DNA from: Clostridiales bacterium
GTDB taxonomy: Bacteria > Bacillota > Clostridia > Christensenellales > Borkfalkiaceae
DNA: 64,000 nt
Assembly (NCBI GenBank): GCA_015055805.1
Contig: SVHN01000002.1
Location: 62,001 to 126,000, forward strand
Reading direction: 5' to 3'
Part shown: piece after piece, positions 6,483-54,013 of the stretch
Numbering within the stretch: position 1 is the first letter of the stretch
Layout: the number at the start of each line of letters is the position of its first letter
Notes under the pieces: model-generated
Databases searched by the model: none
What the model saw: the letters and a program-made list of their open reading frames with translations, nothing else
Told to the model about the DNA's origin: nothing
Translations under genes and position numbers: made by a program

Positions 6483-6606
6483 AATAAGGGGTTAGATACA
6501 AGCAAGACAAGGAAAGTGAAGTTTTACGAAGTGCGTGTACTTTTACGTACACAATCGAGTAAAACTGATACTTGACACAGTATTGCGCAGTATATAAGCA
6601 CTTATT
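6483..6606 (+). repeat. Structured interspersed element, copy 1
   Basis: Copy of the seven-member family. Outer arms start AATAAGG at 6483 and end CTTATT at 6606. The middle stem is AGTTTTAC (6520-6527) with GTAAAACT (6559-6566). The inner hairpin is GTGTAC (6535-6540) with GTACAC (6547-6552). The conserved strings ACAAGCAAGACAAGG and GCGCAGT lie between the outer and middle stems. It is in tandem with copy 2. Confidence 0.85.
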
Positions 6607-6609
6607 GTA

Positions 6610-6732
6610 AATAAGGGGTTAGATACAAGCAAGACAAGGCGTGTGAGTATTGCGACGGGGCGCGTACTTCTTGTACGCAACCCTAGCAACACGGAACACA
6701 ACGCAGTATTGCGCAGTAGGTAAACCCTTATT
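6610..6732 (+). repeat. Structured interspersed element, copy 2
   Basis: Tandem neighbour of copy 1 with the same outer arms (AATAAGGGG at the left, ACCCTTATT at the right). The inner hairpin is GCGTAC (6662-6667) with GTACGC (6673-6678), a compensated change from the GTGTAC/GTACAC of copy 1. The right edge touches the proS stop codon. Confidence 0.85.
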
Positions 6733-8160
6733 TTAGTAGGCGCGGGCAAATATTACCTTATGCTTAGCAGGTTTTCCACAGATTGCACACTTTTCAGGAA
6801 TACCTTCTTCGTCAACCATGACGCGAGCGGTGGCGGAAGCAAGTTCTTTTACTTTGTCTTCACACTCACGACAACCACACCAACCGGCTTTTACGAATTT
6901 TCCGTCTACGCCGTTTATTATTCCGTCGAGAGTATCCGTTTCTATTATACGCGCGTCGCGGTTTGCCCTTGACTTAACGAGCATTTCTTTTTGGATAATA
7001 TCGAGAAGTTCTGGAATAAGGGTTTCAAGCGCGTCGATTGACTCGAACTGCTTTTCGTTTTTATCCCTGCGAACGAGAACGGCTTGATTGTTTTCAATAT
7101 CTCTAGGTCCTATCTCGATACGTAAGGGAACGCCTTTCATTTCCCACTCGTTAAACTTCCAACCTGGGCTCATATCACGGGTATCGGTTTCTGCGCGAAT
7201 ACCCGCTTTTACTAGCATTGATTCTATTTCTTTTGCCTTTTCGATTACACCGCCCTTATGCGCTGCAACGGGAACGATAATAACTTGGATAGGCGCAATC
7301 TTTGGCGGCAGCACAAGACCACGTTGGTCGCCGTGCGCCATGATTACCGCGCCGATCATACGAGTAGAAGTTCCCCAAGAAGTAGTATATCCATACTTTT
7401 GAGTACTATCCTTATCTAAGAATTTTATATCGAACGCTTTTGAGAAGTTCTGTCCTAAGTAGTGGCTAGTACCCGACTGCAAACTCTTTCCGTCTAGCAT
7501 CATTGCCTCCAAGCCGAAAGTAGCAACCGCGCCTGCGAACTTTTCCTTTTCGGTCTTTCTGCCGCAGATTACGGGAAGAGCAAGGGTTTCTTCCATAAAC
7601 TCTCTATAAACGTTGAGCATCTTTATGGTTTCTTCCATAGCCTCTTCTTCGGTGGCGTGAACGGTATGACCTTCCTGCCACAAAAATTCGCTGGTACGAA
7701 GGAAGGGACGTGTGGTCTTTTCCCAACGCATAACGTTACACCATTGATTCATAATAACCGGAAGATCACGATAGGACTGAATCCACTTTGCGTACATCGT
7801 TCCGATAACCGTTTCACTAGTTGGACGGATTGCAAGCGGTTCTTCAAGTTTTGCGCCGCCCGCGTGGGTTACGACTGCAACTTCGGGCGCAAACCCTTCA
7901 ACGTGTTCTGCCTCTTTGGTGAAAAAACTCATAGGGATAAGCAATGGAAAGTACGCGTTCTTAGAACCGTTTTCCTTAAAACGCCTATCCATATCTTTTT
8001 GTATATTTTCCCAAATAGCGTAACCGTAAGGACGGATAACCATAGTACCTTTTACAGGACCGTAGTCAACCAACTGGGTTTTTAACACCACGTCGGTATA
8101 CCATTGGGTAAAGTTTTCGTTGATGTCTGCGATCTCTTTTACAAACTGTTTTTCTGCCAT
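6733..8160 (-). CDS. proS: Prolyl-tRNA synthetase, short (eukaryote/archaea-like) form
   Basis: Class II synthetase that charges tRNA-Pro. Motif 2 (VMRWEKTTRPFLRTSEFLWQ) and the TSE and HGD segments (AHGDQRGLVLPP) are visible. There is no INS editing domain, and the C-terminal extension carries Cys pairs (CGCREC, CAICGK) and ends in a terminal Tyr, as in the archaeal-type ProS of some Clostridia. I take the ATG at 8158-8160 (475 residues, beginning MAEKQFVKEI) because GGAG lies 8 nt before it; the upstream in-frame ATG at 8187 has no ribosome site. A TTGTAT-17-TATAAT promoter lies just upstream. I see no T-box leader. The stop codon is flush with repeat copy 2. Confidence 0.96.
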   Translation of the reverse strand: MAEKQFVKEIADINENFTQWYTDVVLKTQLVDYGPVKGTMVIRPYGYAIWENIQKDMDRRFKENGSKNAYFPLLIPMSFFTKEAEHVEGFAPEVAVVTHAGGAKLEEPLAIRPTSETVIGTMYAKWIQSYRDLPVIMNQWCNVMRWEKTTRPFLRTSEFLWQEGHTVHATEEEAMEETIKMLNVYREFMEETLALPVICGRKTEKEKFAGAVATFGLEAMMLDGKSLQSGTSHYLGQNFSKAFDIKFLDKDSTQKYGYTTSWGTSTRMIGAVIMAHGDQRGLVLPPKIAPIQVIIVPVAAHKGGVIEKAKEIESMLVKAGIRAETDTRDMSPGWKFNEWEMKGVPLRIEIGPRDIENNQAVLVRRDKNEKQFESIDALETLIPELLDIIQKEMLVKSRANRDARIIETDTLDGIINGVDGKFVKAGWCGCRECEDKVKELASATARVMVDEEGIPEKCAICGKPAKHKVIFARAY

Positions 8161-8201
8161 AATCTTTCTCCGTGCATAATTTTCCATTATTAGACAGTCT
8201 A

Positions 8202-8230
8202 ATTATAGCACGCAAACGATAAATATACAA
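8202..8230 (-). promoter_or_regulatory. Promoter for proS
   Basis: Minus-strand TTGTAT (8225-8230), 17-nt spacer, TATAAT (8202-8207). Confidence 0.6.
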
Positions 8231-8260
8231 GTTTTTTTCTTTAATTTTACACAAAAAGGC

Positions 8261-8289
8261 TTGAAAAAGAATTGATATTGCTATATAAT
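8261..8289 (+). promoter_or_regulatory. Promoter for tkt
   Basis: TTGAAA (8261-8266), 17-nt spacer, TATAAT (8284-8289), about 95 nt before the tkt start. It is divergent from the proS promoter. Confidence 0.7.
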
Positions 8290-8384
8290 ATATATCGAAT
8301 TTACGTTAACGGTTTGCCGTTTACTTAATTTTTTAAGTGAAAATCACACGGCGTTCCGTTTATCACTACATTTAGGAGGATATT

Positions 8385-10355
8385 ATGCAAGACGTAAAAC
8401 AACTTACTATTAACGCTATTAGGGTACTCTCTGCCGAGGCTATCCAAAAAGCAAACTCCGGTCACCCCGGTCTTCCCCTCGGTGCTGCTCCTATCGGTTA
8501 CGCAGCATTTACTAACATGGTTTTCAACCCGAAAGATACCGCGTTTGACAACCGCGACAGATTCGTTCTTTCCGCAGGTCACGGTTCTATGCTTGATTAC
8601 GCGCTTTACTATCTCTTCGGATTCGGTCTTACCAAAGAAGACATCATGAACTTCCGTCAGCTCGGCTCACGCACGGCTGGTCACCCCGAATACGGTGTTT
8701 GCCCCGGCGTTGAAACCAGCACCGGTCCGCTCGGACAAGGTATTGCTAACGCTGTTGGTATGGCTATCGCTGAAGCTTATCTTGCTGAAAAATTCAACAA
8801 AGAAGGTTTCCCCGTAGTTGACCACTACACCTACGCTCTCTGCGGCGACGGCTGTATGCAGGAAGGTATCGAAAACGAGGCTGCATCACTTGCAGGCGCG
8901 CTTAAACTTGGCAAGCTTATCGTTTTATACGACGATAACGATATCACTATCGAAGGCGATACGGATATTACCTTTACCGAAAACGTTGGCAAACGTCACG
9001 AGGCTCTCGGTTGGCAGGTAATCAACGTTAAGGACGCTAACGATATCGGCGCACTTAACCGCGCTATCAAGAAAGCTAAGGCTGAAACCGAAAAGCCTTC
9101 GCTCATCATCATCAAATCTCTTATCGGTTACGGTTCACATCTCGTTGGCAAGGCTGCTTGCCACGGCGCACCGCTCGGTGAAGAAGGCGTTGCAACCTTA
9201 AAGAAAAACCTTGACTGGACGGGCGAACCGTTTGAAGTTCCCGAAGAAGTATTCAAACACTGCAAGAAGTTTGCTAATAAAGGCAGACGCGCTGAAAGGG
9301 CTTGGAAAGCAATGTTTAAGGCTTATGCTGAAGCTTACCCCGAACTCGCAAAAGAGTATATTTCTTGGAAGAAGAAAGAACTTCCCGATCTTAAAGCTAT
9401 CGAAGAATTGTGGCAGTTTGAAAAGGACGACGCGTCCAGAGGTTACGGCGCAACCGTTCTCAACAAACTCGCTAAATATATTCCGCAGCTTATCGGCGGT
9501 AGTGCTGACTTAGCACCTGCTAACAAATCCAACATGAAATCTCGCGGCGAATTCTTACCTAACGACAGAACCGGTTCAAACATGCACTTCGGTATCCGTG
9601 AACACGCTATGGCGGCTATCGTCAACGGTATGTATTTGCACGGCGGTCTTATCCCCTACTGCGCAACGTTCGCTGTTTTCTCTGACTACATGAAGAACGC
9701 TATGCGTATGTCGGCAATTATGGAACTCCCCGTAATTTATATCCTTACTCACGACTCTATCGGTGTCGGCGAAGACGGACCTACACACCAGCCTATCGAA
9801 CACCTTGCAGGTCTCCGCGCTATGCCGCACATGAAAGTTTATCGTCCCGCAGACGGCAGAGAAACCACCGCTGCTTGGATCAACGCTCTCACCGGCAAAG
9901 ATCCGTCTTGCTTGGTTCTTTCTCGTCAGACTATTCCTATGCTTGACGGCACGGGCGAAAAGGCTATGAAAGGTGGATATATCCTCGCTGATTCAGCTAA
10001 GAAAACCCCCGACGTTATTCTTATCGCTACTGGTAGTGAAGTTAACCTTGCAGTATCTGCTAAGGCAAAACTCGCTGAACAGGGTGTTGATGCAAGAGTC
10101 GTTTCTATGCCTTGCGTAGAAGACTTTGAAGCACAGAGCGAGAAGTATAAAGAAAGCGTTCTTCCGAAAGCTGTACGCGCTAGGGTTGCTATTGAAGCAG
10201 GCTCACCCATGTGCTGGTACAAGTACGTTGGTATGGACGGAAAGATTATCGGTATGGAATCTTTCGGCGAATCTGCTCCTGCAGGTAAGCTTTTCGTTAA
10301 ATACGGTTTCACCGTTGATAACGTTGTAAACACCGCGTTAGAAGTAATTAAATAA
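8385..10355 (+). CDS. tkt: Transketolase
   Basis: Thiamine-diphosphate enzyme of the non-oxidative pentose phosphate pathway; it moves two-carbon ketol units between sugar phosphates. The single chain has 656 residues, normal for full-length transketolase. Visible features are KANSGHPGLPLGAAPIGYA near the N-terminus, the cofactor motif GDGCMQEGI...DDNDITIEG, the middle-domain FGIREHAMAAIVNGM, and THDSIGVGEDGPTHQPIEHL. AGGAGG lies 6 nt before the ATG. The gene has its own promoter and terminator and is a single transcription unit. Its codon use is visibly richer in C-ending codons than that of its neighbours, consistent with high expression. Confidence 0.98.
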   Translation: MQDVKQLTINAIRVLSAEAIQKANSGHPGLPLGAAPIGYAAFTNMVFNPKDTAFDNRDRFVLSAGHGSMLDYALYYLFGFGLTKEDIMNFRQLGSRTAGHPEYGVCPGVETSTGPLGQGIANAVGMAIAEAYLAEKFNKEGFPVVDHYTYALCGDGCMQEGIENEAASLAGALKLGKLIVLYDDNDITIEGDTDITFTENVGKRHEALGWQVINVKDANDIGALNRAIKKAKAETEKPSLIIIKSLIGYGSHLVGKAACHGAPLGEEGVATLKKNLDWTGEPFEVPEEVFKHCKKFANKGRRAERAWKAMFKAYAEAYPELAKEYISWKKKELPDLKAIEELWQFEKDDASRGYGATVLNKLAKYIPQLIGGSADLAPANKSNMKSRGEFLPNDRTGSNMHFGIREHAMAAIVNGMYLHGGLIPYCATFAVFSDYMKNAMRMSAIMELPVIYILTHDSIGVGEDGPTHQPIEHLAGLRAMPHMKVYRPADGRETTAAWINALTGKDPSCLVLSRQTIPMLDGTGEKAMKGGYILADSAKKTPDVILIATGSEVNLAVSAKAKLAEQGVDARVVSMPCVEDFEAQSEKYKESVLPKAVRARVAIEAGSPMCWYKYVGMDGKIIGMESFGESAPAGKLFVKYGFTVDNVVNTALEVIK

Positions 10356-10370
10356 TTACCGAAAAAGATT

Positions 10371-10406
10371 AAGGGCGTGTGCTGGTGCACACGCCCTTGT
10401 TTTTTA
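10371..10406 (+). terminator. Rho-independent terminator after tkt
   Basis: AAGGGCGTGTG pairs with CACACGCCCTT, followed by GTTTTTTAT. Confidence 0.9.
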
Positions 10407-10415
10407 TATAAGGTT

Positions 10416-11213
10416 TTAATCTATCGTGTATTTATATAGCGACGACTTGGACACACCGCGTTCTTTAGCGACGGCTTTTAATGCGTCTTTTTTGTCCATG
10501 CCCTGTTTAATATATAGTTCTATATGTTCCTTTTCGGTAAGGTTTAGGTTTTGGTTTTGCCTTGTTCCACCTTCAATTAGAATTACGTATTCGCCTTTGG
10601 GTTCGGTGGGCAGTCCTTCTGAAAGATTGAACCGTTCAGCGCGTTCGTGAAGTTTGGTTATCTCCTTAACGGCAACGGCTTTGCGGTCACCGAACACAGA
10701 ATAAATACTTTCCAAATCTTTTTTAACGTCGTGCGGCGCAGAATAAAAAATTAAGGTTAAGTCTAAATCCTTATACTTTTCTAAAAAGGCTTTTCTTTCC
10801 GAACTTTTATCGGGCATAAACCCTAAAAAGCAAAACTTAGAACTGTCCAGCCCCGCTAAAACTAGCGCGGAAATAAATGCACACGCCCCCGGAATTACCG
10901 TAAACTCTAAGTCGTTTTCAATGAGTTTATCGACCAAAACGCTACCGGGGTCGGATACGATAGGCATACCTGCGTCGGTAATTACCGCTATGCTTTTCCC
11001 CGATTTTAATTTGTCAATTATCTTTTCACTAATCTCTTTTTCGTTAAACTTGTGATAAGCAAACAGCGGTTTTTTTATCTCGTAAGCGTTCAAAAGACCT
11101 AACGAGTGTCTAGTGTCCTCACAAGCAATCTCGTCCACGCTTTTTAGAACTTCTAAGGCGCGCAGCGATATATCTTTTAAGTTCCCTATCGGGGTTGCAA
11201 CAAAATATAACAT
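10416..11213 (-). CDS. rsmI: 16S rRNA (cytidine(1402)-2'-O)-methyltransferase RsmI
   Basis: SAM-dependent enzyme that methylates the ribose of C1402 in the decoding centre. It belongs to the tetrapyrrole-methylase fold: FVATPIGNLKDISLRALEVL at the start, CEDTRHS, TDAGMPIVSDPG and a proline/glycine loop. The C-terminal part resembles a helix-turn-helix (GVSKSSLYKYTID), as is usual for this family. I prefer the ATG at 11211-11213 (265 residues, MLYFVATPIG), preceded by GAGAG; an alternative TTG at 11228 overlaps the trmN6 stop. Translational coupling to trmN6 is likely. Confidence 0.95.
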   Translation of the reverse strand: MLYFVATPIGNLKDISLRALEVLKSVDEIACEDTRHSLGLLNAYEIKKPLFAYHKFNEKEISEKIIDKLKSGKSIAVITDAGMPIVSDPGSVLVDKLIENDLEFTVIPGACAFISALVLAGLDSSKFCFLGFMPDKSSERKAFLEKYKDLDLTLIFYSAPHDVKKDLESIYSVFGDRKAVAVKEITKLHERAERFNLSEGLPTEPKGEYVILIEGGTRQNQNLNLTEKEHIELYIKQGMDKKDALKAVAKERGVSKSSLYKYTID

Positions 11214-11224
11214 AATTTCTCTCT

Positions 11225-11890
11225 TCAATTGATAATCGTCGGCAAAACTTTAAGTCCGCTCTTTCCGCCTTTAACACCTTCCATAAGGAAAAGGTACGGC
11301 TCTTTATTTCCACCGCTTACAAACTGCAAGGTTTTAGGCTCGATATTTTTTTGTTTAAGTTCGGTTATAACTTCAACAAGTCTGTCTGCACGGTGAACAA
11401 GGTTTACCCTACCCCCGAATTTTAACGACGTGGATATTGCCGAAACAAGGTCTGTTAGTGGTAGCGTAAGTTCGGTTCTACAAACGGCAATACAGTCTTT
11501 TTCGTCGATAAAGCCTTTGCCTATCGGCATATACGGCGGATTGCAGGTTATAAGCGAAAACTTTCCAGCATACTTTGAGCCAAGGTCTTGAAGTCTAACG
11601 TTTTCCGCATTAAAAATTTCACCAAGATTATTTAATTCTATACTCTTTTTAGATAGTTCGTAAAGCGGTTTTTGCATTTCAAAAAAGGATACGCTCTTTA
11701 TAAGGTTTTTATTTAACCCGTAAAGATGAAAGCCAACTATACCGCTTCCCGAACAAAAATCCGCAACGACGTCACCTTTTTTTACTTTGGTAAATTTAGA
11801 TAAAAGTACCGAGTCGGAAGTGAAACGGTACAGTTCGTCGTCTTGATAAATTTTTATACCTTCTAAAAAAAGGTCTTCTAATCTTTCCAT
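11225..11890 (-). CDS. trmN6: tRNA1(Val) (adenine(37)-N6)-methyltransferase-like protein
   Basis: Rossmann-fold SAM methyltransferase of 221 residues. It shows the SAM-binding loop VADFCSGSGIVGFHL near residue 40 and the N6-adenine signature NPPY (LITCNPPYMPIG) near residue 118. Pairing with rsmI is a common Firmicute arrangement. No clear Shine-Dalgarno sequence precedes the ATG. The substrate adenine is inferred from family membership; other small N6 or rRNA/tRNA targets are possible. Confidence 0.88.
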   Translation of the reverse strand: MERLEDLFLEGIKIYQDDELYRFTSDSVLLSKFTKVKKGDVVADFCSGSGIVGFHLYGLNKNLIKSVSFFEMQKPLYELSKKSIELNNLGEIFNAENVRLQDLGSKYAGKFSLITCNPPYMPIGKGFIDEKDCIAVCRTELTLPLTDLVSAISTSLKFGGRVNLVHRADRLVEVITELKQKNIEPKTLQFVSGGNKEPYLFLMEGVKGGKSGLKVLPTIIN

Positions 11891-11926
11891 AGTTTTATAA
11901 TTTTTTATTGGTTTATAGTTAAAATA

Positions 11927-13142
<1,216 letters not shown>

Positions 13143-13223
13143 CTAATGATAGCATAAATAACGAAAAATATCAATAATTTAGCAGCAATAGTTAAAATAC
13201 TTGGCACAATTTTGGTCATATGC

Positions 13224-13251
13224 TTGATTATTTTGGGTTTTATGCTATAAT
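13224..13251 (+). promoter_or_regulatory. Promoter for the CorC/HlyC-like gene
   Basis: TTGATT (13224-13229), 16-nt spacer, TATAAT (13246-13251), about 55 nt before the chosen start. Confidence 0.65.
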
Positions 13252-13307
13252 ATATCTGTACGCCTTTGCGTATAATAATTATATTTCTTTTATTTAAGGA
13301 GGATTTT

Positions 13308-14636
13308 ATGCCATCAGACGGCTCTGTTCCGTTGCAAACCTTGTTACTCTCAGGATTCACCCCTAACTTTAACGTCGGCTTGCTCATAGCAATCATAGCG
13401 TTAGTAATAATGTCTGGTTTTTTCTCATCAACGGAAACTGCTTACTCTTGCGCAAACAAAATCAAATTGCGCTCACTCGTTTCTAACGGGAACAAACGTG
13501 CTAAAAACGTTCTTCACCTTGCAGAAACAAACTACGATAGGTTTATCAGCACGGTTTTAATCGGTAACAATATCGTCAACCTTTCGGCTACAACGCTAGC
13601 GACCATATTCTTTGCTAATCTTATTGCCGACGGAAATACTTCAGCGGTTGTTTCTACCGCGGTAATGACGGTTGCCGTTCTAATATTCGGCGAAATCACA
13701 CCGAAGTTCCTTGCTAAAACCTTTCCGGAAAAATTCTCGATGGCGTTCTATCCCATTATTAAATTTTTCTATTACTTATTCTTCCCACTAAACCTAATAT
13801 TTGGCGGTTGGAAATGGATGCTCAGTAAAGTATTCCGCTTAAAGAACGCGGAAATCGTTACCGAAGACGAAATCATGACCATCGTTGAAGAGGCGGAAGA
13901 AGACGGCACGCTCGGCACGGAAGAAACCCAGCTTATCCGCTCGGTTATCGAGTTTGACGACTTGGAAGTCGGGGATATTCTAGTTCCCAGAGTAAATATA
14001 GTCGGCGTGGATATTGCCTCTTCTATGGAAGATATACGTAAAGTGTTTAACCGCGAAGGTTATTCACGCGTACCCGTTTATAAGGATAGCATTGATACTA
14101 TAATCGGTACTATTCATGAAAAAGACTTCTTTAACGCCTACCTTAACGGAAAGAAAGGTATCGACGGTATAATGCAGAACGCTTTCTATACCACCGAACA
14201 CGCTAAAATTTCCGATCTTCTTAGACAGTTGCAGAAAAAGAAAGTACATATCGCAGTCGTTTTGGACGAATACGGCGGTACGCTTGGACTTGTAACGTTA
14301 GAAGATATCTTAGAAGAACTAGTCGGGGAAATTTACGACGAGCACGACGAGATTATCAATTATTATAAACAATTATCTAGCGACACTTTCTTGATTGACG
14401 GTAACGCACCGCTTGACGATACGTTTGAATATCTTGGACTTCCCAAAAACGAGGACGAAGAGTTTGAGGCTATAACGGTCAGCGGTTGGATAATCGAACT
14501 GCTCGGTGAAATTCCAAAAGCAGGCGAAAAACTAACCCACAAAAACCTTGACGTGGAAGTGCTTAAATCTACGGTAAAGAAAATACTTCAAGTAAAAATC
14601 GTAGTCAATCCACTAGAAGAAACCGAAGAAGAATAA
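13308..14636 (+). CDS. CNNM/CBS-domain transporter of the HlyC/CorC family
   Basis: Membrane protein of 442 residues. It has an N-terminal CNNM (DUF21) domain with about four hydrophobic segments (residues 15-150, including SGFFSSTETAYSCAN and FGEITPKFLAKTFP), a linker, a CBS-domain pair (about 195-320; VPRVNIVGVDIASSM, VVLDEYGGTLGLVTLEDILE) and a C-terminal CorC_HlyC domain. Family members are linked to magnesium or cobalt export and magnesium homeostasis; the older hemolysin name is misleading. I chose the ATG at 13308 because AAGGAGGA precedes it; the upstream ATG at 13266 would overlap the promoter and has no ribosome site. Confidence 0.92.
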   Translation: MPSDGSVPLQTLLLSGFTPNFNVGLLIAIIALVIMSGFFSSTETAYSCANKIKLRSLVSNGNKRAKNVLHLAETNYDRFISTVLIGNNIVNLSATTLATIFFANLIADGNTSAVVSTAVMTVAVLIFGEITPKFLAKTFPEKFSMAFYPIIKFFYYLFFPLNLIFGGWKWMLSKVFRLKNAEIVTEDEIMTIVEEAEEDGTLGTEETQLIRSVIEFDDLEVGDILVPRVNIVGVDIASSMEDIRKVFNREGYSRVPVYKDSIDTIIGTIHEKDFFNAYLNGKKGIDGIMQNAFYTTEHAKISDLLRQLQKKKVHIAVVLDEYGGTLGLVTLEDILEELVGEIYDEHDEIINYYKQLSSDTFLIDGNAPLDDTFEYLGLPKNEDEEFEAITVSGWIIELLGEIPKAGEKLTHKNLDVEVLKSTVKKILQVKIVVNPLEETEEE

Positions 14637-14650
14637 ATAAAAAATTTTTA

Positions 14651-14677
14651 CTGCCACTTATAATTTTTAAGTGGCAG
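14651..14677 (+). terminator. Stem-loop between the CorC-like gene and tRNA-Arg
   Basis: CTGCCACTTA pairs with TAAGTGGCAG across a 7-nt loop. The downstream T-run is short, so termination may be partial and may allow read-through into tRNA-Arg 4 nt later. Confidence 0.55.
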
Positions 14678-14681
14678 TTAT

Positions 14682-14758
14682 GCACCCGTAGCGCAATTGG
14701 ATAGAGCGTCGCCCTCCGACGGCGAAGGCTATGGGTTCGACTCCCGTCGGGTGCACCA
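14682..14758 (+). tRNA. tRNA-Arg (anticodon CCG)
   Basis: Cloverleaf of 77 nt: acceptor GCACCCG pairs with CGGGTGC, discriminator A, encoded CCA. The anticodon stem CGTCGCC...GGCG holds the loop CTCCGAC, giving CCG for codon CGG. The T-arm reads GGGTTCGACTCCC. The last 17 nt plus four A are duplicated at 14833-14853. Confidence 0.95.
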
Positions 14759-14768
14759 AAAACTTTAG

Positions 14769-14817
14769 TTCGGACGCCTTTGATGGGCTTTTTTACATAG
14801 ACTTAGTCCTCCGTAGC
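14769..14817 (+). repeat. Post-tRNA 50-bp repeat, copy 1
   Basis: Begins TTCGGACGCCTTTGATGGGC, contains GACTTAGTCC and ends CGTAGC. Related copies follow the tRNA-Glu units at 44151-44200 and 44388-44437. Identity is highest with the last: the first 15 bases are the same, as are GACTTAGTCC and CGTAGC. Confidence 0.75.
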
Positions 14818-14832
14818 GTAAGCGTAGGAGCG

Positions 14833-14853
14833 TCCCGTCGGGTGCACCAAAAA
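14833..14853 (+). repeat. Duplicate of the tRNA-Arg 3' end
   Basis: A 21-bp direct repeat of 14742-14762: TCCCGTCGGGTGCACCA followed by A-run. It covers the 3' half of the T-arm, the acceptor 3' strand and CCA, separated from the original by 70 bp that hold the post-tRNA repeat. It resembles the attachment-site duplications left by tRNA-targeting integration, but no integrase is nearby. Confidence 0.8.
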
Positions 14854-14869
14854 AACAATCGTAAAAATT

Positions 14870-15436
14870 ATGAAACTAATATTAGCAAGTAAATCGCCGA
14901 GAAGAAAGGAAATTTTAAGTAAGTTCGGATTCCATTTTGAAGTTAAAGTAGCAGATTTTTCCGAACTAGATTTTTTGGGTGATCCCGAAAAGACGGCAAA
15001 AGAAAATGCGTTTGGAAAAGCAAAAGCCACTTTTAATGCTTGCCTAGACAAAGACGTTATCGTTATAGGCTCTGATACCGTGGTCGCTATCGACGGCAAA
15101 ATTTTAGGCAAGCCTAAAAATAAAGCCGACGCTTTTAATATGCTTAAAAATTTGTCGGGTAAAACTCACCAAGTTATATCTGGATACGCGCTTATAGGTA
15201 AAAACTTTGAAAAGGTCGGCTTTGATAAAAGCCTAGTTACCTTTAACAACCTTTCCGATAAACTTATTAACGAATACGTCGAGAGCGGTTCTCCCCTCGA
15301 TAAAGCCGGCGCGTACGGAATACAGGACGACTTCCCTATCGTTAAAAATTATCAAGGCAGTTTATATAACGTAATAGGTCTGCCGATTGAAAAAATTAGT
15401 CCTGTACTTAACAGCATATTAAAAACCGAAAATTAA
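14870..15436 (+). CDS. maf: Maf-family nucleoside triphosphate pyrophosphatase
   Basis: Cytoplasmic enzyme of 188 residues that hydrolyses dTTP/UTP or modified NTPs to monophosphates; in Bacillus it is linked to septum formation. Signatures: LASKSPRRKEIL at the N-terminus, the metal-binding SDTVVAIDGKILGKP near residue 63, and KAGAYGIQD near residue 142. No Shine-Dalgarno is visible before the ATG, and the gene starts 17 nt after the duplicated tRNA-Arg tail, so it is probably read from the tRNA-Arg transcript. Confidence 0.93.
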   Translation: MKLILASKSPRRKEILSKFGFHFEVKVADFSELDFLGDPEKTAKENAFGKAKATFNACLDKDVIVIGSDTVVAIDGKILGKPKNKADAFNMLKNLSGKTHQVISGYALIGKNFEKVGFDKSLVTFNNLSDKLINEYVESGSPLDKAGAYGIQDDFPIVKNYQGSLYNVIGLPIEKISPVLNSILKTEN

Positions 15437-15453
15437 TTCGGTTTTCGATATAC

Positions 15454-15487
15454 AAAAAAAGCAATCTAGTCGTTGTAGATTGCTTTT
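15454..15487. terminator. Bidirectional terminator between maf and purC
   Basis: AAAAAGCAATCTA pairs with TAGATTGCTTTTT around a 7-nt loop, with A-run on the left and T-run on the right, serving both convergent genes. Confidence 0.9.
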
Positions 15488-15504
15488 TCTTTTTTTTGTT
15501 ATGA

Positions 15505-16203
15505 TTATCTATTGTTGATAAGTTTGGTAAGTTCAACGGGTTCAACGATTTTGTCGCCCTTATAAACACGCATGTTGCCCGACGCGATTTCGTCAATTAA
15601 GATAACTTCGCCGTTATTGTAGCCGAACTCAAACTTAATATCCCAAAGGTCAAGACCGATTTCTTTAAGGTCGTCTGCAACGATTTTAGTGATTTTCAAG
15701 GTCTGCTCTTTCATGCTGTTGAACTGTTCTTGAGTCATAACGCCGAGAGCAGCCAAGCCTTCGCTAGTTACTAGCGGATCACCCTTTTCGTCGTTCTTAA
15801 AAGTACACTCAACGTAACCGCCTTCTAAACGAGTTCCGTTTTTGATGTATTCGCCGTATCTGCGAACAAAACTACCAGTTGCAACCAAACGGCAAATAAC
15901 TTCTAAGCCGTTACCGCCCTGCGCTTTACCAAAGCACTCGGCAGGAAGAACTTCCATAGTAGCATTTTCGATATCAGCAGAAACGTAGTGTGTTTTGATG
16001 CCTGCTTTTTTAAGCATTTCAAAGTAGTAAACCGAAGTGATAAGGTTTGCCTTGCCGATACCTTCAATGGTAAGACCTACGCTGTTTTCACCCGGATCGA
16101 ACACGCCGTCTTTACCCGTGCAATCGTCCTTGAATTTGAGCATAACGTTGCCGTTATCAAGCTTATAAACATCTTTTGTTTTACCTTCGTAAAGTTTTTT
16201 CAT
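15505..16203 (-). CDS. purC: SAICAR synthetase PurC
   Basis: Joins aspartate to CAIR in purine synthesis, using ATP. At 232 residues it has normal bacterial length. It begins [20 protein letters not shown] (the ATP-binding lobe) and contains the segment [11 protein letters not shown] and the C-terminal [20 protein letters not shown]. It stands alone: no other pur gene lies beside it. AAGGTG lies 8 nt before the start and a clear promoter lies 34 nt farther up. I see no purine riboswitch in the leader, which is under 40 nt. Confidence 0.97.
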
Positions 16204-16237
16204 AAAAACACCTTCTTTTTATAGAATTTACAGTCAT

Positions 16238-16266
16238 ATTATAACAAATTCAATCTAGTTTTGCAA
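16238..16266 (-). promoter_or_regulatory. Promoter for purC
   Basis: Minus-strand TTGCAA (16261-16266), 17-nt spacer, TATAAT (16238-16243). Confidence 0.75.
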
Positions 16267-16340
16267 TAATATAAAAGGCGGTTATATAAAATTTTTATTT
16301 ATACGAATTAAAAGCACAGATTATCACGCTGCGCGTTTTA

Positions 16341-16370
16341 AGTGAAGAGTGAAGAGTGAATAGTTGCGGT
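16341..16370. repeat. AGTGAAGAGTGAATAGTTG repeat, locus 2
   Basis: AGTGAAGAGTGAAGAGTGAA followed by TAGTTGCGGT, with one extra GTGAAGA unit compared with 6432-6454. It lies 8 nt before interspersed element copy 4. Confidence 0.6.
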
Positions 16371-16377
16371 ATAAACA

Positions 16378-16504
16378 TTTTAAGGCTTAGAAACAAGCAA
16401 GACAAGGAAGGCAAAAATTGACGAAGTGCGTGTACTTTTTGTACACAATCAAGTCAATTTTTTTAGCCTGACACAGCAGTGCGAAGTTTAGAACGGATTA
16501 AAAA
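16378..16504 (+). repeat. Structured interspersed element, copy 4
   Basis: Outer arms TTTTAAGGCTTAGAAAC and GTTTAGAACGGATTAAAA. The middle stem is AAAAATTGAC (16413-16422) with GTCAATTTTT (16453-16462), a perfect 10 bp. The inner hairpin is GTGTAC (16430-16435) with GTACAC (16441-16446). Tandem with copy 5. Confidence 0.87.
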
Positions 16505-16505
16505 A

Positions 16506-16633
16506 TTTAAGACGTTAGATGCAAGTGTGGCTAGGCTCGAAAAGTGGGACGGACACGATTGACCTTGTCGGTCATTCGGGGTCGTATCCGCTTTTCAGTA
16601 AACGACGCCACACGCCGCAGATAAAGGCTTAAA
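16506..16633 (+). repeat. Structured interspersed element, copy 5
   Basis: Outer arms TTTAAGACGTTAGATGC and GCAGATAAAGGCTTAAA. A stem GTGTGGC/GCCACAC follows, then GAAAAGTGGGAC paired imperfectly with GTCGTATCCGCTTTTC. The inner hairpin is TGACC (16560-16564) with GGTCA (16570-16574). The right edge is 1 nt from the stop codon of the downstream oxidoreductase gene. Confidence 0.85.
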
Positions 16634-16634
16634 A

Positions 16635-17951
16635 TTAGACTTCAATTTTCTTTGTCGCCGTCTTCTTAGATTGATTAAATGCCATATTTGAATAGCCTGT
16701 GGTGCTCTTCAAGTCTTCTTCAAAAAGTTTTTTCTGAACTTCGTAGACTGCGTCGGGATAAGAAGTTACACCTTGATTGTTGGACGGAATATGGTCGGGT
16801 GAACCTACTTCTGCAAACACGCTCTTTCTATCGTTCCTATATTTTTCACGAACGGCTTTATCACGGAAGTTTGGTACTTCAACAGGAATACCGCCTGCTA
16901 AAATAGAACGGTAAGCGAACATACCGCACATGCACATATCGAGCGCCATATAAATATCAATAGTATCGGCAGCAGGATTGCCGTTAATTTTTTCAACAAA
17001 GTTCCAAGCCGAGTAGAAGTCTGAACCACCGTGTCCAAACACTTTACTTGCCTCGTTATCAATAACGGGTACGACGTCTTCACGCTTGGGGTTTTTATAA
17101 TCGCCTTCAAACGGATCGTATTCTGCGTAAAGTCTGGTATAAGAACCCGTATTTGCAGATGCTCTTGCCGTTTCAAGTCTACCCTTAGAACCATACAACG
17201 AATACCAAGTATTGTGCTTATAAAGTCCACCGTGCAAACTCTTAACGTGCGCGCCGTTTTCAAGTTCGACGATTTCCATGCCGTATGCAGGGGCAAGCTT
17301 ACCCATTCTTGCACTTCTTTCGCCCATTTTGCCCTCAAAGCCTGTAACTTTTACAGGACGAAGTCCGGTCGTAAATATTATCGGGCCTAAAGAGTGAGTG
17401 CAGTAGAATGTGCAATACATTCTATTTCTCCAGTGGGTTTTATCGCCGTAAGCAATGCTAGGCCAAATAGATTCGCAGTTATGAACGTATTCGCACTCTG
17501 CGTATTCCATTTCGCCGATTTGACCTTCCCTAAAACGCTTTTTCATTTCGTATGCGCCGGGCATATAAACGTAGTTTTCCGCGTAAGCGTAAGTTAAACC
17601 CGTTGCTTCGATAGTCTCAACTAGTTCAACAGCCTCTGCCGGTGTCTGAACGGGCAAAACTTCACTTGCGACGTGCTTGCCTGCTTTCAACGCCTTGATT
17701 GCAAAGGGTGCGTGTTCGTGCGCATAGTTAGCAAGCCAAACTGCGTCCATATCGTGTTTAATAAAATCGTCAAAGTTATCGTAAAAGGCAATGTTTCTGT
17801 CGCTGTAATTTGCTTTCTGTCTTTCTAGCGCCTCGGGCCACTTGTCACAAATCGCAACAACTTCGGCGTTATCGGACGCATCACAGTAACTTATCATACT
17901 CGTTCCACGGTACGCGCCGAGAACACCTATCCTTAATTTCTTTTTTTCCAT
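16635..17951 (-). CDS. Gfo/Idh/MocA-family NAD(P)-dependent oxidoreductase
   Basis: 438 residues. The N-terminal Rossmann fold (LRIGVLGAYRGTSMISYCD, about 1-125) binds NAD(P). It is followed by EVLPVQTPAEAVELVE, which holds the position of the family's substrate-proximal Lys motif (here V-L-P instead of the usual E-K-P). The C-terminal alpha/beta domain spans about 130-400. Members act on sugars, inositols or glycosides; the substrate here is unknown. AAGGAG precedes the start. It is divergent from an AraC regulator and near an acetylesterase, which suggests a carbohydrate-utilisation locus. The absence of the usual Lys may mean a non-oxidising role or a different catalytic scheme. Confidence 0.88.
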   Translation of the reverse strand: MEKKKLRIGVLGAYRGTSMISYCDASDNAEVVAICDKWPEALERQKANYSDRNIAFYDNFDDFIKHDMDAVWLANYAHEHAPFAIKALKAGKHVASEVLPVQTPAEAVELVETIEATGLTYAYAENYVYMPGAYEMKKRFREGQIGEMEYAECEYVHNCESIWPSIAYGDKTHWRNRMYCTFYCTHSLGPIIFTTGLRPVKVTGFEGKMGERSARMGKLAPAYGMEIVELENGAHVKSLHGGLYKHNTWYSLYGSKGRLETARASANTGSYTRLYAEYDPFEGDYKNPKREDVVPVIDNEASKVFGHGGSDFYSAWNFVEKINGNPAADTIDIYMALDMCMCGMFAYRSILAGGIPVEVPNFRDKAVREKYRNDRKSVFAEVGSPDHIPSNNQGVTSYPDAVYEVQKKLFEEDLKSTTGYSNMAFNQSKKTATKKIEV

Positions 17952-36505: not shown

Positions 36506-36632
36506 AATAAGGGATTAGATACAAGTGTGGCTAGGCTCGAAAAAGGGTTTGGACTGAGTTGACCTTGTTGGTCACGAAGGTCAAATCCCTTTTTCAGTAA
36601 ACGACGCCACACGCCGTATATAAACCCTTATT
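36506..36632 (+). repeat. Structured interspersed element, copy 6, with remnant upstream
   Basis: Outer arms AATAAGGGATTAGATAC and GTATATAAACCCTTATT. The stem GTGTGGC/GCCACAC is followed by GAAAAAGGGTTTGGAC with GTCAAATCCCTTTTTC. The inner hairpin is TGACC (36560-36564) with GGTCA (36570-36574). The right edge overlaps the lysC stop codon. At 36484-36502 the string CGCAGTAGATAAGCACTTA matches the end of copy 1, a remnant of another copy. Confidence 0.86.
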
Positions 36633-37947
36633 TGTTGAAGGCTGAGTATATTGCCTTAATACACTTCTCGTAATCACTATTTGCAACACCGATAATAATA
36701 TTCAATTCGCTTGAGCCTTGGTCAATCATACGAATATTTATATTTGCGTTTGCTAGCGCGGTAAACAAGGTTGCGGCTGTACCGGGCCGGCGCGCCATAC
36801 CGTGTCCAACGGTTGCTATCAATGAAATATTTTCTATAACGTGGACGTAATCAGGATTAACGTTTTCTCTAATCTCGCCAACCAAGTCGTTGAGTACGCC
36901 GTTTGCAAGTTGGTCGGTTTCTAAAACGATAGACAAGGTATCAATGCCAGACGGCAAATGTTCTACGCATAGTCCGTAATGCTCAACAACTGAAAGCACG
37001 CGACGGATAAATCCGACTTCTGCGTTCATCATTGATTTTTCTATCAATAAAACGGTAAAGTTTTTCTTGCCAGCGATACCTGTAATGATGCTGTTATCGT
37101 CGTTTACGTACTGTTCGTTGGGAACGATCATTGTACCCTTATCTTCGGGCTTAAAGGTGTTTTTAATATTAATGGGAATTCTTCCTTTCATAACAGGGGT
37201 TATAGCCTCTGCGTGAAGGACTGATGCGCCCATATAGGATAGTTCGCGAACTTCCTTATAAGTAATCTGTTTTATAACCTTAGGATTATCAACTATTCTG
37301 GGATCGCAAACCAAAAATCCGCTGACGTCCGTCCAGTTCTCGTACAAGCCCGCCTTTGTTCCACGAGCAATGATTGAACCTGTTATGTCGCTACCACCAC
37401 GACTGAAAGTCTTGATTTGGCCTTGAAAATTCTTGCCGTAAAATCCCGGAATAACCGCCTTTTCAACGCCGTTTAAGCGGCTCATTACTTTATCGTCGGT
37501 ATAGTCTTGATTGAGTTTTCCGTGACTGTCAAATCTTATCATATCGGCAGCATCAACAAACTCGTACCCGAAAAAGTCCGCAGCGATAATCGCGCTTAAA
37601 TATTCGCCACGCGATGCGGCAAAGTCTGCGCACTTGCTCTCGTTAATTTCCTTTTCGGTTTTATCGAGAACACTTTCGATATCAAGGCTTAATTCTAAGT
37701 CCTTTACTATCTCGGTAAATCTTTGACGGATAACCTTAAAAGTTTCCTTACACGTTCCGCTCTCTACGACTTCGTTATAGCAACGATACAACATATCGGT
37801 GATTTTGATATCGTCCTTAAAGCGTTTGCCCGGTGCGGAAACGATTATAAATCTTCTCTCAGGGTCTGATTGTACTATGTTTTTTACCTGTCTTATTGCT
37901 TTGGCGTCAGCCATTGACGTGCCGCCGAATTTACAAACCTTAATCAT
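36628..37947 (-). CDS. lysC: Aspartate kinase
   Basis: First step of the aspartate pathway to lysine, threonine and methionine. 439 residues: kinase domain with CKFGGTSMADAKAI at residues 6-19, FSRGGSDITGSI near 180, and two ACT regulatory domains at the C-terminus (about 300-439, with SGIDTLSIVLETD and ANINIRMIDQGSSELNIIIG). It resembles the class with tandem ACT domains, feedback-inhibited by lysine or threonine. No lysine riboswitch is seen upstream, where the DUF1015 gene overlaps by 4 nt. Its stop lies in repeat copy 6. Confidence 0.95.
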   Translation of the reverse strand: MIKVCKFGGTSMADAKAIRQVKNIVQSDPERRFIIVSAPGKRFKDDIKITDMLYRCYNEVVESGTCKETFKVIRQRFTEIVKDLELSLDIESVLDKTEKEINESKCADFAASRGEYLSAIIAADFFGYEFVDAADMIRFDSHGKLNQDYTDDKVMSRLNGVEKAVIPGFYGKNFQGQIKTFSRGGSDITGSIIARGTKAGLYENWTDVSGFLVCDPRIVDNPKVIKQITYKEVRELSYMGASVLHAEAITPVMKGRIPINIKNTFKPEDKGTMIVPNEQYVNDDNSIITGIAGKKNFTVLLIEKSMMNAEVGFIRRVLSVVEHYGLCVEHLPSGIDTLSIVLETDQLANGVLNDLVGEIRENVNPDYVHVIENISLIATVGHGMARRPGTAATLFTALANANINIRMIDQGSSELNIIIGVANSDYEKCIKAIYSAFNK

Positions 37948-43814: not shown

Positions 43815-43838
43815 TGACAACGCAGTTTGTTCCGACGC

Positions 43839-43966: not shown

Positions 43967-44004
43967 TCCCCACGGGGAACGAACACAACTAAATATTTGA
44001 GCAC

Positions 44005-44079
44005 GCCCTCATGGTCAAGCGGTTAAGACGCAGCCCTCTCACGGCTGAATCCGGGGTTCGATTCCCCGTGGGGGTGCCA
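44005..44079 (+). tRNA. tRNA-Glu (anticodon CTC)
   Basis: Cloverleaf of 75 nt: acceptor GCCCTCA with TGGGGGT (1:72 is a G-T pair and one more wobble), discriminator G, encoded CCA. The anticodon stem CAGCC/GGCTG holds CTCTCAC, anticodon CTC for codon GAG. The T-arm is CGGGGTTCGATTCCCCG. Flanked by broken partial copies on both sides. Confidence 0.93.
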
Positions 44080-47214: not shown

Positions 47215-47236
47215 ATTATATTACCTCCGTATGATT

Positions 47237-47263: not shown

Positions 47264-47268
47264 GTCTT

Positions 47269-47460: not shown

Positions 47461-47472
47461 CCTAAATTGATT

Positions 47473-48198: not shown

Positions 48199-48292
48199 TT
48201 TTTTCCTCCTTTTTTGGTTGTAAGTCCTTACGTCAAAAGTTTAACCGAATAAAGTTTAACCGTCAACGGTATATGTCAGAAAATAGTGGTTT

Positions 48293-49780: not shown

Positions 49781-49795
49781 AGTACGTCCTGTCCT

Positions 49796-50059
49796 TTACT
49801 TTATGAGTTTTGCCGATTCGAGTTTTTCAATGAATTTTTCAATATCTTTGGTCGCTAATTCTTCTTCTACTTCGTATTCTGCAAGCAATGCGGAAATCAA
49901 GTCTTCTTTCTCCGCGCCCTTTTCAAGAATCTTCCATAAAAACGCGCCCGTTTCGTTAAGATTAATAACGCCGTTAAATTCTTTTACGGCACTACCTACC
50001 GCTACGACGATATAACTTCCTGCTACTTCGCGAAGTATAAACCCTTCTTTAATTTTCAT
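49796..50059 (-). CDS. PqqD-family protein (RiPP-recognition-element fold)
   Basis: 87 residues from the ATG at 50057-50059 (GGAG lies 7-10 nt upstream), overlapping the kinase stop by 11 nt. KIKEGFILREVAGSYIVVAV and GVINLNETGAFLWKILEKGA are typical of the PqqD family, winged-helix proteins that present precursor peptides to modifying enzymes. No precursor peptide, radical SAM enzyme or protease is visible nearby. The coupling to an HprK-like kinase is known from lasso-peptide and other clusters. Confidence 0.88.
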   Translation of the reverse strand: MKIKEGFILREVAGSYIVVAVGSAVKEFNGVINLNETGAFLWKILEKGAEKEDLISALLAEYEVEEELATKDIEKFIEKLESAKLIK

Positions 50060-50771: not shown

Positions 50772-50928
50772 TTTTCTTCCCCTTATCGGCTTTTTTATGA
50801 GAATTTTCCTATAAAAAACCAATTCGTATATTATTTTACCAAAGCCGTTGCTCTTTGTCAATATAAATTTGATTTTTAAATAATTTTTATATATAATATA
50901 AATAGAAATCCGAAAGGGGGGCAAGTCA

Positions 50929-52029: not shown

Positions 52030-52054
52030 TACTTTAATCTTTACTCACAATGTT

Positions 52055-52082
52055 CCGCCGAATTTTTTCGGCGGTTTTTTTA
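52055..52082 (+). terminator. Terminator after apbE
   Basis: CCGCCGAA pairs with TTCGGCGG around a T-rich loop, followed by TTTTTTT. The end overlaps the stop codon of the convergent permease gene. Confidence 0.88.
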
Positions 52083-52838
52083 TTTCCAGCCGCTTGCCTT
52101 TTTGCTTAGCCTATTAAAGATAAACTCAACTATTACCCCGAAAATTACGGCAACGCAAACGGTTGCTAGCATTTGCGCTATTTCAAAGTAGACCTTAGAA
52201 GTATTGAGCAAATACCCTATCGAGTTTGCCGTTTGGGCTATAACTTCGGCTGCAACCATAAGCTTAAAGTTTAATGATATTCCACCGCCTATCCCACTAT
52301 ATATTGACGGCATAGCTTGCGGAAGTTGGATTTTGGTAAAAACTCTTATTTCGTCTGCGCCGTCCACCCTGCCTGCCTCTGCAATGGTTTTATCAAGCGC
52401 GAAAAACGCGCTTTCAATATGCGTATAAAGGGTTGGCAAAACGACTAAGGTCGTAACTATTACGGGCGCGACTTGCGAGTTTGTCCAAAACAATAGTAGC
52501 AGTACGACCGCTATGGTCGGCAAAGCGCGCATGACGCTTATTATCGGGGAAACGGCACTCTTAAAAAGGTCGAATTTTGTTGAAAAAATCGCCAAGACAA
52601 AGGCTACCGCAAAAGAAAAAATAAAGGCGATAAGACTTCTTAAAAGGGTTAGGAAAAAGGCGGAATAAAAAGTTTTATCAAAAAACAGCGCGAAAAACTT
52701 TTCCGCCGTAAGTTTTACCGACGGCAGAATATATTCGCTATTCACTATCGCCCCTGCAAGTGCCCAAACGAGTATTAATACTAACACGGTTACAAGGGGC
52801 AATATTCTATTTAAGATTTTCGCGCGCTTATCTTTCAA
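52080..52838 (-). CDS. ABC transporter permease (SsuC/TauC/ThiX type)
   Basis: 252 residues with about six membrane helices. The EAA loop is AEAGRVDGADEIRVFTKIQL with PQAMPSI after it, contacting the ATPase. It lies 14 nt after the binding-protein gene. The expected third gene, the ATPase, is absent: the next gene is convergent apbE. The substrate group (sulfonate/taurine, pyrimidine precursors of thiamine, or similar) cannot be fixed. Confidence 0.92.
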   Translation of the reverse strand: MKDKRAKILNRILPLVTVLVLILVWALAGAIVNSEYILPSVKLTAEKFFALFFDKTFYSAFFLTLLRSLIAFIFSFAVAFVLAIFSTKFDLFKSAVSPIISVMRALPTIAVVLLLLFWTNSQVAPVIVTTLVVLPTLYTHIESAFFALDKTIAEAGRVDGADEIRVFTKIQLPQAMPSIYSGIGGGISLNFKLMVAAEVIAQTANSIGYLLNTSKVYFEIAQMLATVCVAVIFGVIVEFIFNRLSKKASGWK

Positions 52839-52852
52839 TTTTTACTCCGTTT

Positions 52853-53860
52853 TTATTCGGCAAAGAAGTCGTCTTCTATTGCTTTTGCAGACTTTTCGTT
52901 TATCTCGATTATCTTACTTATATATGTCTTAACCTGTTCTTTTGCATCGGTGGCGGACTGATAATATATCTTGCAGTTTTCCACAACCGAAGTGTTAATG
53001 TTTGCCGCAACAAGGCTTGCAGTTACACCTTCTTTTAGAACACCGTTTACAGCGTCAACCGCGCTTGCAGGATTTTCTTTTATCCAAGTAACGTTAGCGG
53101 AAAACTTTTCTGCCATACCGTCAATCTGTTCTTTGAACGGCTCATAAACTGACTTTCTTACCATAAGCACGGCTTGGGGATAAGATTTTGCTTGTTCGTC
53201 GTATAGGGTTTGTAGGTCGAGCCTTGACCAAGTCTTATCGGCAGCAACCTTGGTAAGGTTAGTTGCCGCAGGTTCGGGCAATAAACCAACGCTGAGTTTA
53301 CCCGTCTTTAATAGGGGTATCATCTCGGTTGCCGCGCCAAAATAGCGAACGGCTATTTTCCCTTCAACCGCAGTTTCGCTCACCACTATATCACCGAGCA
53401 GTCCGTTATTTTTTAATACGGCTTGGAAAGTTAAATCAGGCACTAAGCCTTGACCTATAACGCCGATAACCTTGCCTTTTAATCCGTCCAAAGTAGTTTC
53501 GCCGTCGCTCATAATATAAAGGTTACCGTGGGTTATGACCGCAGCCATAACGTAAGGCGAATCGGCGTTTGCTTTATAGAGTTTACTTGCCGCGTTTACG
53601 GGCATAACGATAAAGTCGCCTTGACCTTGCGACATAACACCGCCTATATCGTTTGACGATACGACGTGATAACTTATCTCACCGTCTATACCAAAGTTTT
53701 CCTTGTCGCTGATAAACTTTGCAATAGCAAGGGCAGGCGCGCCGTCAGGCGCGTAAAAAGATAAGTTTTTAGGTCCGTCGTTCTTATCTTTACAACCGAC
53801 ACACGCCGCTGATGAAAGAAGAGTTAAAACGCTTAAAAGGATTGCTAAAAATTTTTTCAT
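52853..53860 (-). CDS. ABC transporter substrate-binding lipoprotein (NMT1/SsuA-like)
   Basis: 335 residues. The lipoprotein signal has Cys near residue 23 (SSAACVGCKDK). The fold is that of NMT1/SsuA proteins: SFYAPDGAPALAIAKFISDK near residue 34, GDFIVMPVNAASKLYK near residue 82, VIGVIGQGLVPDLTFQAVLK near residue 130 and KSYPQAVLMVRKSVY near residue 235. AAGGAG precedes the ATG. The gene is read through a promoter, an attenuator-like leader and an interspersed element (54179 down to 53861), so ligand-dependent control is likely; the ligand is not known. Confidence 0.9.
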   Translation of the reverse strand: MKKFLAILLSVLTLLSSAACVGCKDKNDGPKNLSFYAPDGAPALAIAKFISDKENFGIDGEISYHVVSSNDIGGVMSQGQGDFIVMPVNAASKLYKANADSPYVMAAVITHGNLYIMSDGETTLDGLKGKVIGVIGQGLVPDLTFQAVLKNNGLLGDIVVSETAVEGKIAVRYFGAATEMIPLLKTGKLSVGLLPEPAATNLTKVAADKTWSRLDLQTLYDEQAKSYPQAVLMVRKSVYEPFKEQIDGMAEKFSANVTWIKENPASAVDAVNGVLKEGVTASLVAANINTSVVENCKIYYQSATDAKEQVKTYISKIIEINEKSAKAIEDDFFAE

Positions 53861-53894
53861 AACACTTTTCTCCTTAAAAAGATATTGGTTTCGT

Positions 53895-54013
53895 ATTAAG
53901 TTAAACGTGTTAGGCTAGGCTCGACCAAGCAAAAGGACAAATTGAACGTCTGTTCATTGTGGTCTTTTGCGTAGGGCAGTAACGACGCATAACGAAGTTT
54001 AGAACGGATTAAA
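53895..54013 (+). repeat. Structured interspersed element, copy 7
   Basis: The most diverged copy. Outer arms ATTAAGTTAAACGTGTTA and ATAACGAAGTTTAGAACGG with partial pairing (CGTGTTA/ATAACG; AAAC/GTTT). The middle stem is GCAAAAGGAC (53929-53938) with GTCTTTTGC (53962-53970). The inner hairpin is TGAAC (53943-53947) with GTTCA (53952-53956). It lies between the leader terminator and the binding-protein gene. Confidence 0.8.

Follow-up and report, generated by a model that had tools for sequence, protein, structure and literature searches.

A window of 64,000 nucleotides from a Clostridiales bacterium (order Christensenellales; contig SVHN01000002.1, positions 62,001 to 126,000) contains seven copies of an element ~125 nt long that folds into a bulged hairpin. 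Judging from comparison of sequences, this hairpin family is real, widespread and mobile, and within its order it has outer arms that are specific to the site of each copy and an orientation that follows the replication fork. The reading we favor, which we consider probable, is that the copies are non-autonomous mobile hairpins. Each would lie in the lagging strand with its 3' end meeting the stop codon of a gene whose transcription runs with the fork, and the far arm of its outer stem would be an inverted copy of the target.

The seven copies had been described from the window alone, in a sequence-only reading that saw three compensated helices and two subtypes. Alignment and covariance-model matches confirmed all seven at the coordinates given in Table 1, in one orientation on the plus strand, and both the subtypes and the noted stem pairs were visible in the alignment. 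The outer, middle and inner stems were present as described, but a fourth helix (examples are GCAAGAC/GTATTGC and GTGTGGC/GCCACAC) had been overlooked. The four helices, with conserved internal loops between them, form one long bulged hairpin. That no named family matches was borne out by Rfam, which gave no match at gathering score on any element. A search of the whole window at this score returned three tRNAs and nothing else, and a search of 6300–16800 with E up to 5 returned one tRNA and five below-gathering matches, none of them on an element.

Covariation was tested in two sets of copies. In 139 copies from several genomes, 89.1% of cells were paired, compared to a shuffle mean of 63.9% (0/500 shuffles as high), and the covariation score was 0.592 against 0.164 in shuffles and at most 0.154 for slid partners. 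The alignment of these 139 copies was fitted to the covariance model and thus leans towards structure. In 30 copies from the bacterium's own genome that were aligned without the model, 85.9% of the named cells were paired versus 68.1% after shuffling. Both tests support a conserved fold with true covariation, well outside what chance would give. Loss of covariation with more copies, which had been named beforehand as evidence against the fold, did not occur in the 139-copy set.

One-sided changes in the stems were few, and double changes were many. This pattern speaks for an explanation in which the covariation comes wholly from post-insertion template-switch (quasipalindrome) correction with no selection on the fold, and sections of a published account (PMC8794818) offer a precedent by arguing that template switching both makes and maintains stems. 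However, internal loops and G.A mismatches (columns 13/184 and 24/169) remain unpaired in most copies, and correction alone would tend to erase them. We consider it quite unlikely that correction accounts for all of the covariation, and selection on the fold is the better reading for these loops and mismatches. The folded strand is more likely the plus strand: predicted energy was lower on that strand in 124 of 134 copies. The aligned pairs included 139 GT/TG cells and 54 AC/CA cells.

A covariance model built from the copies and run on the whole genome and its relatives gave 48 matches in the own genome (G000, 1.73 Mb), a few of them partial, and showed that the family is widespread; the seven copies in the window are a sample of the 48. 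Within the genus, 17/25 genomes had 1–53 matches and 8/25 had none, including one genome that is 98% complete. Four genomes (G000, G007, G010, G023) had 32–52 model matches each, and some G000 copies had identical cores. In the order, matches were found in 92/297 sampled genomes and 33/125 genera; this search scored at most 11 candidates per genome, so that the copy counts are lower bounds. The class search, which scored nine candidates per genome, found matches in 32/391 genomes, 27 of them outside the order. An exact pattern matched at least 115 stretches in named genomes; the 80 matches listed were all titled Clostridia or Clostridiales, and among these many were named for ruminant gut samples. 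A blastn search of plasmid and phage record collections, with one query each, gave no match. Of six exact patterns searched against viral contigs, three gave no match and three gave one stretch each, in two contigs; in the second of these (L421) the match lies at the contig edge. The family looks mobile on these comparisons, given the range of 0–53 copies within the genus, the empty and filled sites described below, and the two copies on one phage contig. Among published work, where open-licence literature alone was searched, no such element was found described.

The outermost arms follow the site rather than the core. In 37 same-genome pairs, the cores agreed in at least 95% of alignment columns. 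Of these, 15 pairs had at least two differences on each outer arm and represent about seven independent sets; both copies still paired at 6 or 7 of 7 positions in 14 of them. Targeting by a fixed guide arm is not favored by these data, because cores that are 95–100% identical bear different arms within one genome. Furthermore, the phage contig L420 (IMGVR_UViG_3300009826_001444) carries copies at 5293–5417 and 10113–10236, between head and tail genes. A head-completion gene with the end TTC TAG precedes the first copy, whose arms read GTTCTAG...CTAGAAC. The second copy, with arms ATTTGACG...CGTCAAAT, comes after a gene that ends ATT TGA and matched a tail protein weakly, under the Pfam cut-off. 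That is, the arms contain the phage gene's own stop codon, TAG in one case and TGA in the other. In all, 5/95 genes had a stop other than TAA; the stop was wholly within the arm in two of the five (TGA at L091, and L420) and partly within it in one. The earlier reading had taken compensated stems to mean selection on the fold and not copying. Because arms differ between 95–100% identical cores yet stay self-complementary, and because the phage arms hold the gene's own stop codon, this claim is not supported for the outer arms, whereas for the internal loops and mismatches selection on the fold is the preferred reading.

For the apparent compensation in the outer arms, the best reading is that one arm copies the target in inverted form, and the pattern fits either a copy made at insertion or template-switch correction. 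We infer that the far arm behaves as this inverted copy. No direct target duplication was found among 95 singletons, in which direct k-mers (k ≥ 5) were shared in 20 cases compared to 23.6 in shuffled flanks. The terminal arms were complementary but variable among copies with the same core, and thus there are no fixed terminal inverted repeats.

The copies usually lay at gene ends. The right-hand neighbor was convergent in 129/133 arrays, and gene direction alone gives less than this, as 721/941 open reading frames (ORFs) of at least 60 aa face the element. The 3' end of the array lay within −18 to +5 nt of the facing stop codon in 81/129 arrays, and none lay at 6–31 nt. The facing stop was TAA in 96/101 cases, compared to 524/664 in the background. 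Positions within −14 to +6 nt of the stop were held by 73/102 full-length copies and 7/9 5'-truncated copies, but 0/17 3'-truncated copies. Within the window, four of five sites were at a facing stop codon, the exception being copy 7, and annotation of ten window genes adjoining elements indicated that the flanking genes are mostly core genes.

Comparison of orthologous gene ends revealed both filled and empty sites. The end of mnmA is usually TTT followed by the stop codon. Among the 18 genomes whose mnmA end was printed, this site was without a match in 14 and filled in four (G000, G007, G019, G003), whose cores all differ from one another. The window gene at 4141–5478 has no element in G000, G007 or G019, and in G010 the element is 148 nt away. 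The empty gene ends AAATAA in G000 and G019, and AAATAG in G007. In G003 the site is filled directly after AAATAA, and AAATAA forms one arm while its inverted copy forms the other. The amino-acid kinase site, which holds copy 6 in the window, had no match in G007, G019 or G003. As a separate observation, downstream of the 4141–5478 orthologue in L236/G010:C15, element halves appeared by eye to be split by a stretch with its own inverted repeat, TCCCAAAAAA...TTTTTTGGGA.

Tandem arrays gave evidence on the order of arrival. Truncation was more frequent in distal copies (25/58) than in gene-proximal copies (10/49, p = 0.014), and was seen in 19/93 singletons; lone 5' halves (56) outnumbered lone 3' halves (22). 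It seems that new copies insert between the old ones and the gene. We also looked for an autonomous long form with split halves and rejected it: five rows (three places) had 136–159 nt between halves, none had 200–6000 nt, and one had more than 6000 nt. An apparent 9-kb split in L308 looks like separate remnants.

Orientation was compared with GC skew. For the 48 own-genome matches, strand was uniform within each contig, except for one copy on C10. On this contig the skew changes sign at ~166–186 kb, and the sole minus-strand copy, at 184.9 kb, is on the changed side. In other element-bearing 20-kb stretches (C8, C12, C16, C18 and three G003 contigs), the plus strand was on the negative-skew side. 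Results for the named loci agreed, with 71/77 on the negative-skew strand and 0/77 carrying both orientations. In this group, the better-folding plus strand is the lagging strand as judged by GC skew. A separate exception to one orientation was seen in G498, where copies at L398:2951–3076 (minus) and L398:3210–3334 (plus) are 133 nt apart.

Several observations weigh against the combined reading of lagging-strand hairpins with target-derived arms at stop codons. With regard to the arms, those of L003 distal, L017, L005 distal and L091 distal were unmatched, and the arm lay beyond the stop in 2/5 non-TAA genes. Three species with differing cores share the near arm at the GFO gene, and at the amino-acid kinase site three relatives have a native end other than the near arm AAATAA, which tells against the reading in its simple form. 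No strain pair showed a single insertion cleanly and the phage evidence comes from filled sites, so that the inverted copy is inferred. A similar arm pattern could result if cores underwent gene conversion or if template switching later corrected the arms, and core conversion would also give the shared GFO near arm with differing cores. With regard to placement, 48/129 arrays were at least 32 nt from the facing stop. With regard to orientation, many of the 77 loci share a genome, and the arrays and pairs are likewise not independent; moreover, six of the 77 had weak skew of the wrong sign (0.009–0.046). Outside the order, 3/7 non-rRNA copies (six loci) were on the negative-skew strand and 4/7 on the positive, and copies in rRNA operons were in the rRNA sense. 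Lastly, the fold z-score favored the plus strand in only 88/134 copies, and predicted G-U pairs were equal by strand (359 and 362).

If the hairpins do move as we suggest, the folded element would join or prime at a gene 3' end exposed at the replication fork. The native gene end, often with its stop codon, would become the near arm of the outer stem, a step that is supported at some sites but not at all of them. Snap-back copying or template switching would then produce the far arm as an inverted copy of the near arm, so that the stem would be complementary from birth. The arrays support a further step, in which new copies would arrive on the gene side of old ones, and the old ones would lose their 3' part and decay. 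Movement could be due to a dedicated enzyme or to host polymerases. We suggest tentatively, as a possibility short of probable, that this may be a new mode of mobility: a hairpin that enters the lagging strand where a leading-strand gene has its stop codon, with an inverted and not a direct target copy, and possibly with no dedicated enzyme, through misprimed or template-switched Okazaki synthesis.

We sought a partner gene for the elements. The tyrosine recombinase PF00589 was present in 21/22 genomes, with or without elements. Reverse transcriptase (PF00078/RVT_1) was matched in 3/34 genomes, and not in G000, G003, G007 or G010. The Y1 transposase (PF01797) deserves closer attention, as an IS200/IS605- or REP-type element moved by a Y1 (HUH) transposase would also show hairpins, replication-linked orientation and a short AT-rich target, and the five of 34 genomes with Y1 each had at least one model match. 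Nonetheless, Y1 had no match in G000 (95.7% complete), G007, G010 or G023 despite their many elements, no element was found in the loci around Y1 genes, and the arms are not a fixed recognition sequence. Movement by Y1 is in our view highly improbable. None of the three genes tracks the elements. A search for a recurrent gene adjoining elements (81 sources: 80 named loci and the window) was equally unrewarding; the largest cluster was 8 ORFs in 4 loci, and the neighbor-gene clusters look like ordinary orthologues or paralogues.

Relatives of the element were found beside rRNA genes in other orders (Table 1). Model hits in G511, G449, G667 and G435 were 2–8 nt before 23S in the rRNA sense, and hits before 5S, also in the rRNA sense, were 4–7 nt away in G449 and G667 and 75 nt away in G435. 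Annotation of rRNA covered five of these loci. Another G449 hit (L388:1279–1400), ~300 nt upstream of 16S as judged by spacing, is probably in the 16S leader. These hits would be expected if the element were a SINE-like (short interspersed element) structured RNA from pre-rRNA, whose 3' tail anneals to the lagging template and primes an Okazaki fragment, so that a host polymerase copies it to DNA. The better fold of the plus strand is in keeping with such an RNA, retained lagging-strand primers would yield the polarity seen in this order, and a reverse transcriptase or Y1 gene, neither of which was found in the own genome, would be unneeded. However, the absence of 3'-truncated copies from stop codons (0/17) favors decay over truncated primers. 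Moreover, nothing above 14.7 bits was seen in the scanned stretches of 23S loci from six genomes of the order, three of which (G216, G225, G240) have dispersed copies. This search covered 30 genomes, six with assembled 23S, and took in 11 of 18 retrieved loci. Neither the own genome's assembly nor any of the 12 genus genomes searched yielded a 23S match. Thus, rRNA operons as a source within the order are unsupported by the six genomes with assembled 23S, and we regard origin from an rRNA transcript as unlikely. Two other features were observed in these rRNA genes. The G449 16S gene (L391:7815–9467, minus) has a ~140-nt insertion near model position 80, with no element-model match, and the G667 23S match (L392:3849–7501, minus; it runs off the locus end) covers ~1712 model positions over 3653 nt, as if nearly 2 kb had been inserted in the gene.

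The rRNA-spacer relatives and the gene-end position would also fit hairpins that serve the host, at mRNA 3' ends or in rRNA processing, and that are kept by selection while duplication is a side effect. Strong conservation of the fold and of the loops is in line with such a function. On the other hand, a third of the genus genomes (8/25) do without a match, cores differ at orthologous gene ends, many copies are truncated, and the copies are antisense to the genes they touch. We consider a host function very unlikely to explain the family.

The mobile-hairpin reading can be compared with known systems. Parts of one account (PMC2229807) describe ERIC/IRU (127 bp) and other bacterial miniature inverted-repeat transposable elements (MITEs), which are alike in size, inverted repeats, intergenic position, high copy number and lack of autonomy; most bacterial MITEs described there carry terminal inverted repeats, bear TA at the ends and are accompanied by target duplications. 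In contrast, our element has arms that change from site to site, showed no direct duplication, and in this order is oriented according to replication. A MITE match had been named beforehand as contrary evidence, and the element resembles MITEs in being short and multicopy (~125 nt, 48 matches) but not in target duplication or fixed terminal repeats. REP/REPIN sequences with TnpA-REP (RAYT) are, in the portions of three accounts cited here, likewise hairpins tied to single-strand, replication-linked processes (PMC3116915, PMC6006769, PMC8266576), and the part of a further source cited gives REPs as 20–40 bp (PMC3733652). The present element shares replication-linked orientation, an IS200/IS605-REPIN feature (71/77 loci; C10 skew change), but is 125 nt with four helices, and its own genome has no Y1 match.

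Integron attC sites are similar in that a hairpin is recognized as folded DNA, according to partial accounts. Such sites have variable stem sequence and lie after a gene's stop codon. The element differs in that it appears to be without cassettes and is dispersed over the chromosome, and its core-site layout differs from that of attC. Bacillus cereus bcr1 and similar repeats look mobile and have conserved secondary structure; the likeness is by description and not by sequence, and we know of no report of replication polarity or target-derived arms in bcr1. Group IIC introns insert beside terminators with a strand bias, whereas our element is a 125-nt hairpin with no Rfam match, and RVT_1 had no match in the four genomes named above. 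Finally, 5S expansion hairpin motifs occur also in intergenic regions and in rRNA leaders and spacers, in the sections cited (PMC7812874). The element also has relatives in rRNA spacers, a likeness by description and not by sequence, but its dispersed copies are mostly antisense to genes.

Table 1. Copies in the window and relatives adjoining rRNA genes
Feature	Position	Strand or sense	Description
Copy 1	6483..6606	+	Type I core; distal in tandem pair; 127.5 bits
Copy 2	6610..6732	+	Gene-proximal in tandem pair; 3' end adjoins stop codon of proS (ORF 6733-8187, minus)
Copy 3	11927..12053	+	15-nt overlap with 3' end of mnmA/trmU ORF (12039-13124, minus)
Copy 4	16378..16504	+	Type I core; distal in tandem pair
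Copy 5	16506..16633	+	Type II core; gene-proximal; 3' end 1 nt from stop of GFO/IDH/MocA ORF (16635-17951, minus)
Copy 6	36506..36632	+	Type II core; 5-nt overlap with end of amino-acid kinase ORF with ACT domains (36628-37947, minus)
Copy 7	53895..54013	+	Degenerate 5' arm; no facing gene's stop; next ORF rightward (54259-54978) in same direction
rRNA-adjacent relatives, other orders	L382:4115-4235; L388:3907-4029, 7069-7191; L391:7147-7269, 3814-3936; L394:3530-3653; L397:226-347	rRNA sense	Directly 5' of 23S or 5S

Some features of individual copies may be added. The mnmA/trmU stop codon is now inside copy 3, and an older element appears to end just upstream of copy 6. The weakest of the seven is copy 7 (59 bits); its outer 5' arm is unpaired in the predicted fold, and its fold z-scores are −1.09 on the plus strand and −2.36 on the minus strand. 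Its 3' end comes after what appears by eye to be a terminator-like inverted repeat with a T-run on the minus strand. The window also contains other repeats. A 46-nt stretch at 43838–43883 matches the first part of the tRNA-Glu gene (44004–44049) with 98% identity and lies 166 nt upstream of it, and further repeats are downstream of tRNA-Glu and tRNA-Arg genes (44109–44163/44346–44400 and 14768–14817/44387–44436).

If the mobile-hairpin reading is true, copying of the target can give a repeat family covariation from the birth of each copy, which would bear on the use of compensatory changes as proof of RNA function. The family would then also provide a mobile element that records the replication fork in its polarity, and a natural system, in many gut-metagenome Clostridia genomes, for hairpin movement in which no transposase is obvious. 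The relatives in rRNA spacers point to a possible link between rRNA precursors and mobile repeats, one that can be tested.

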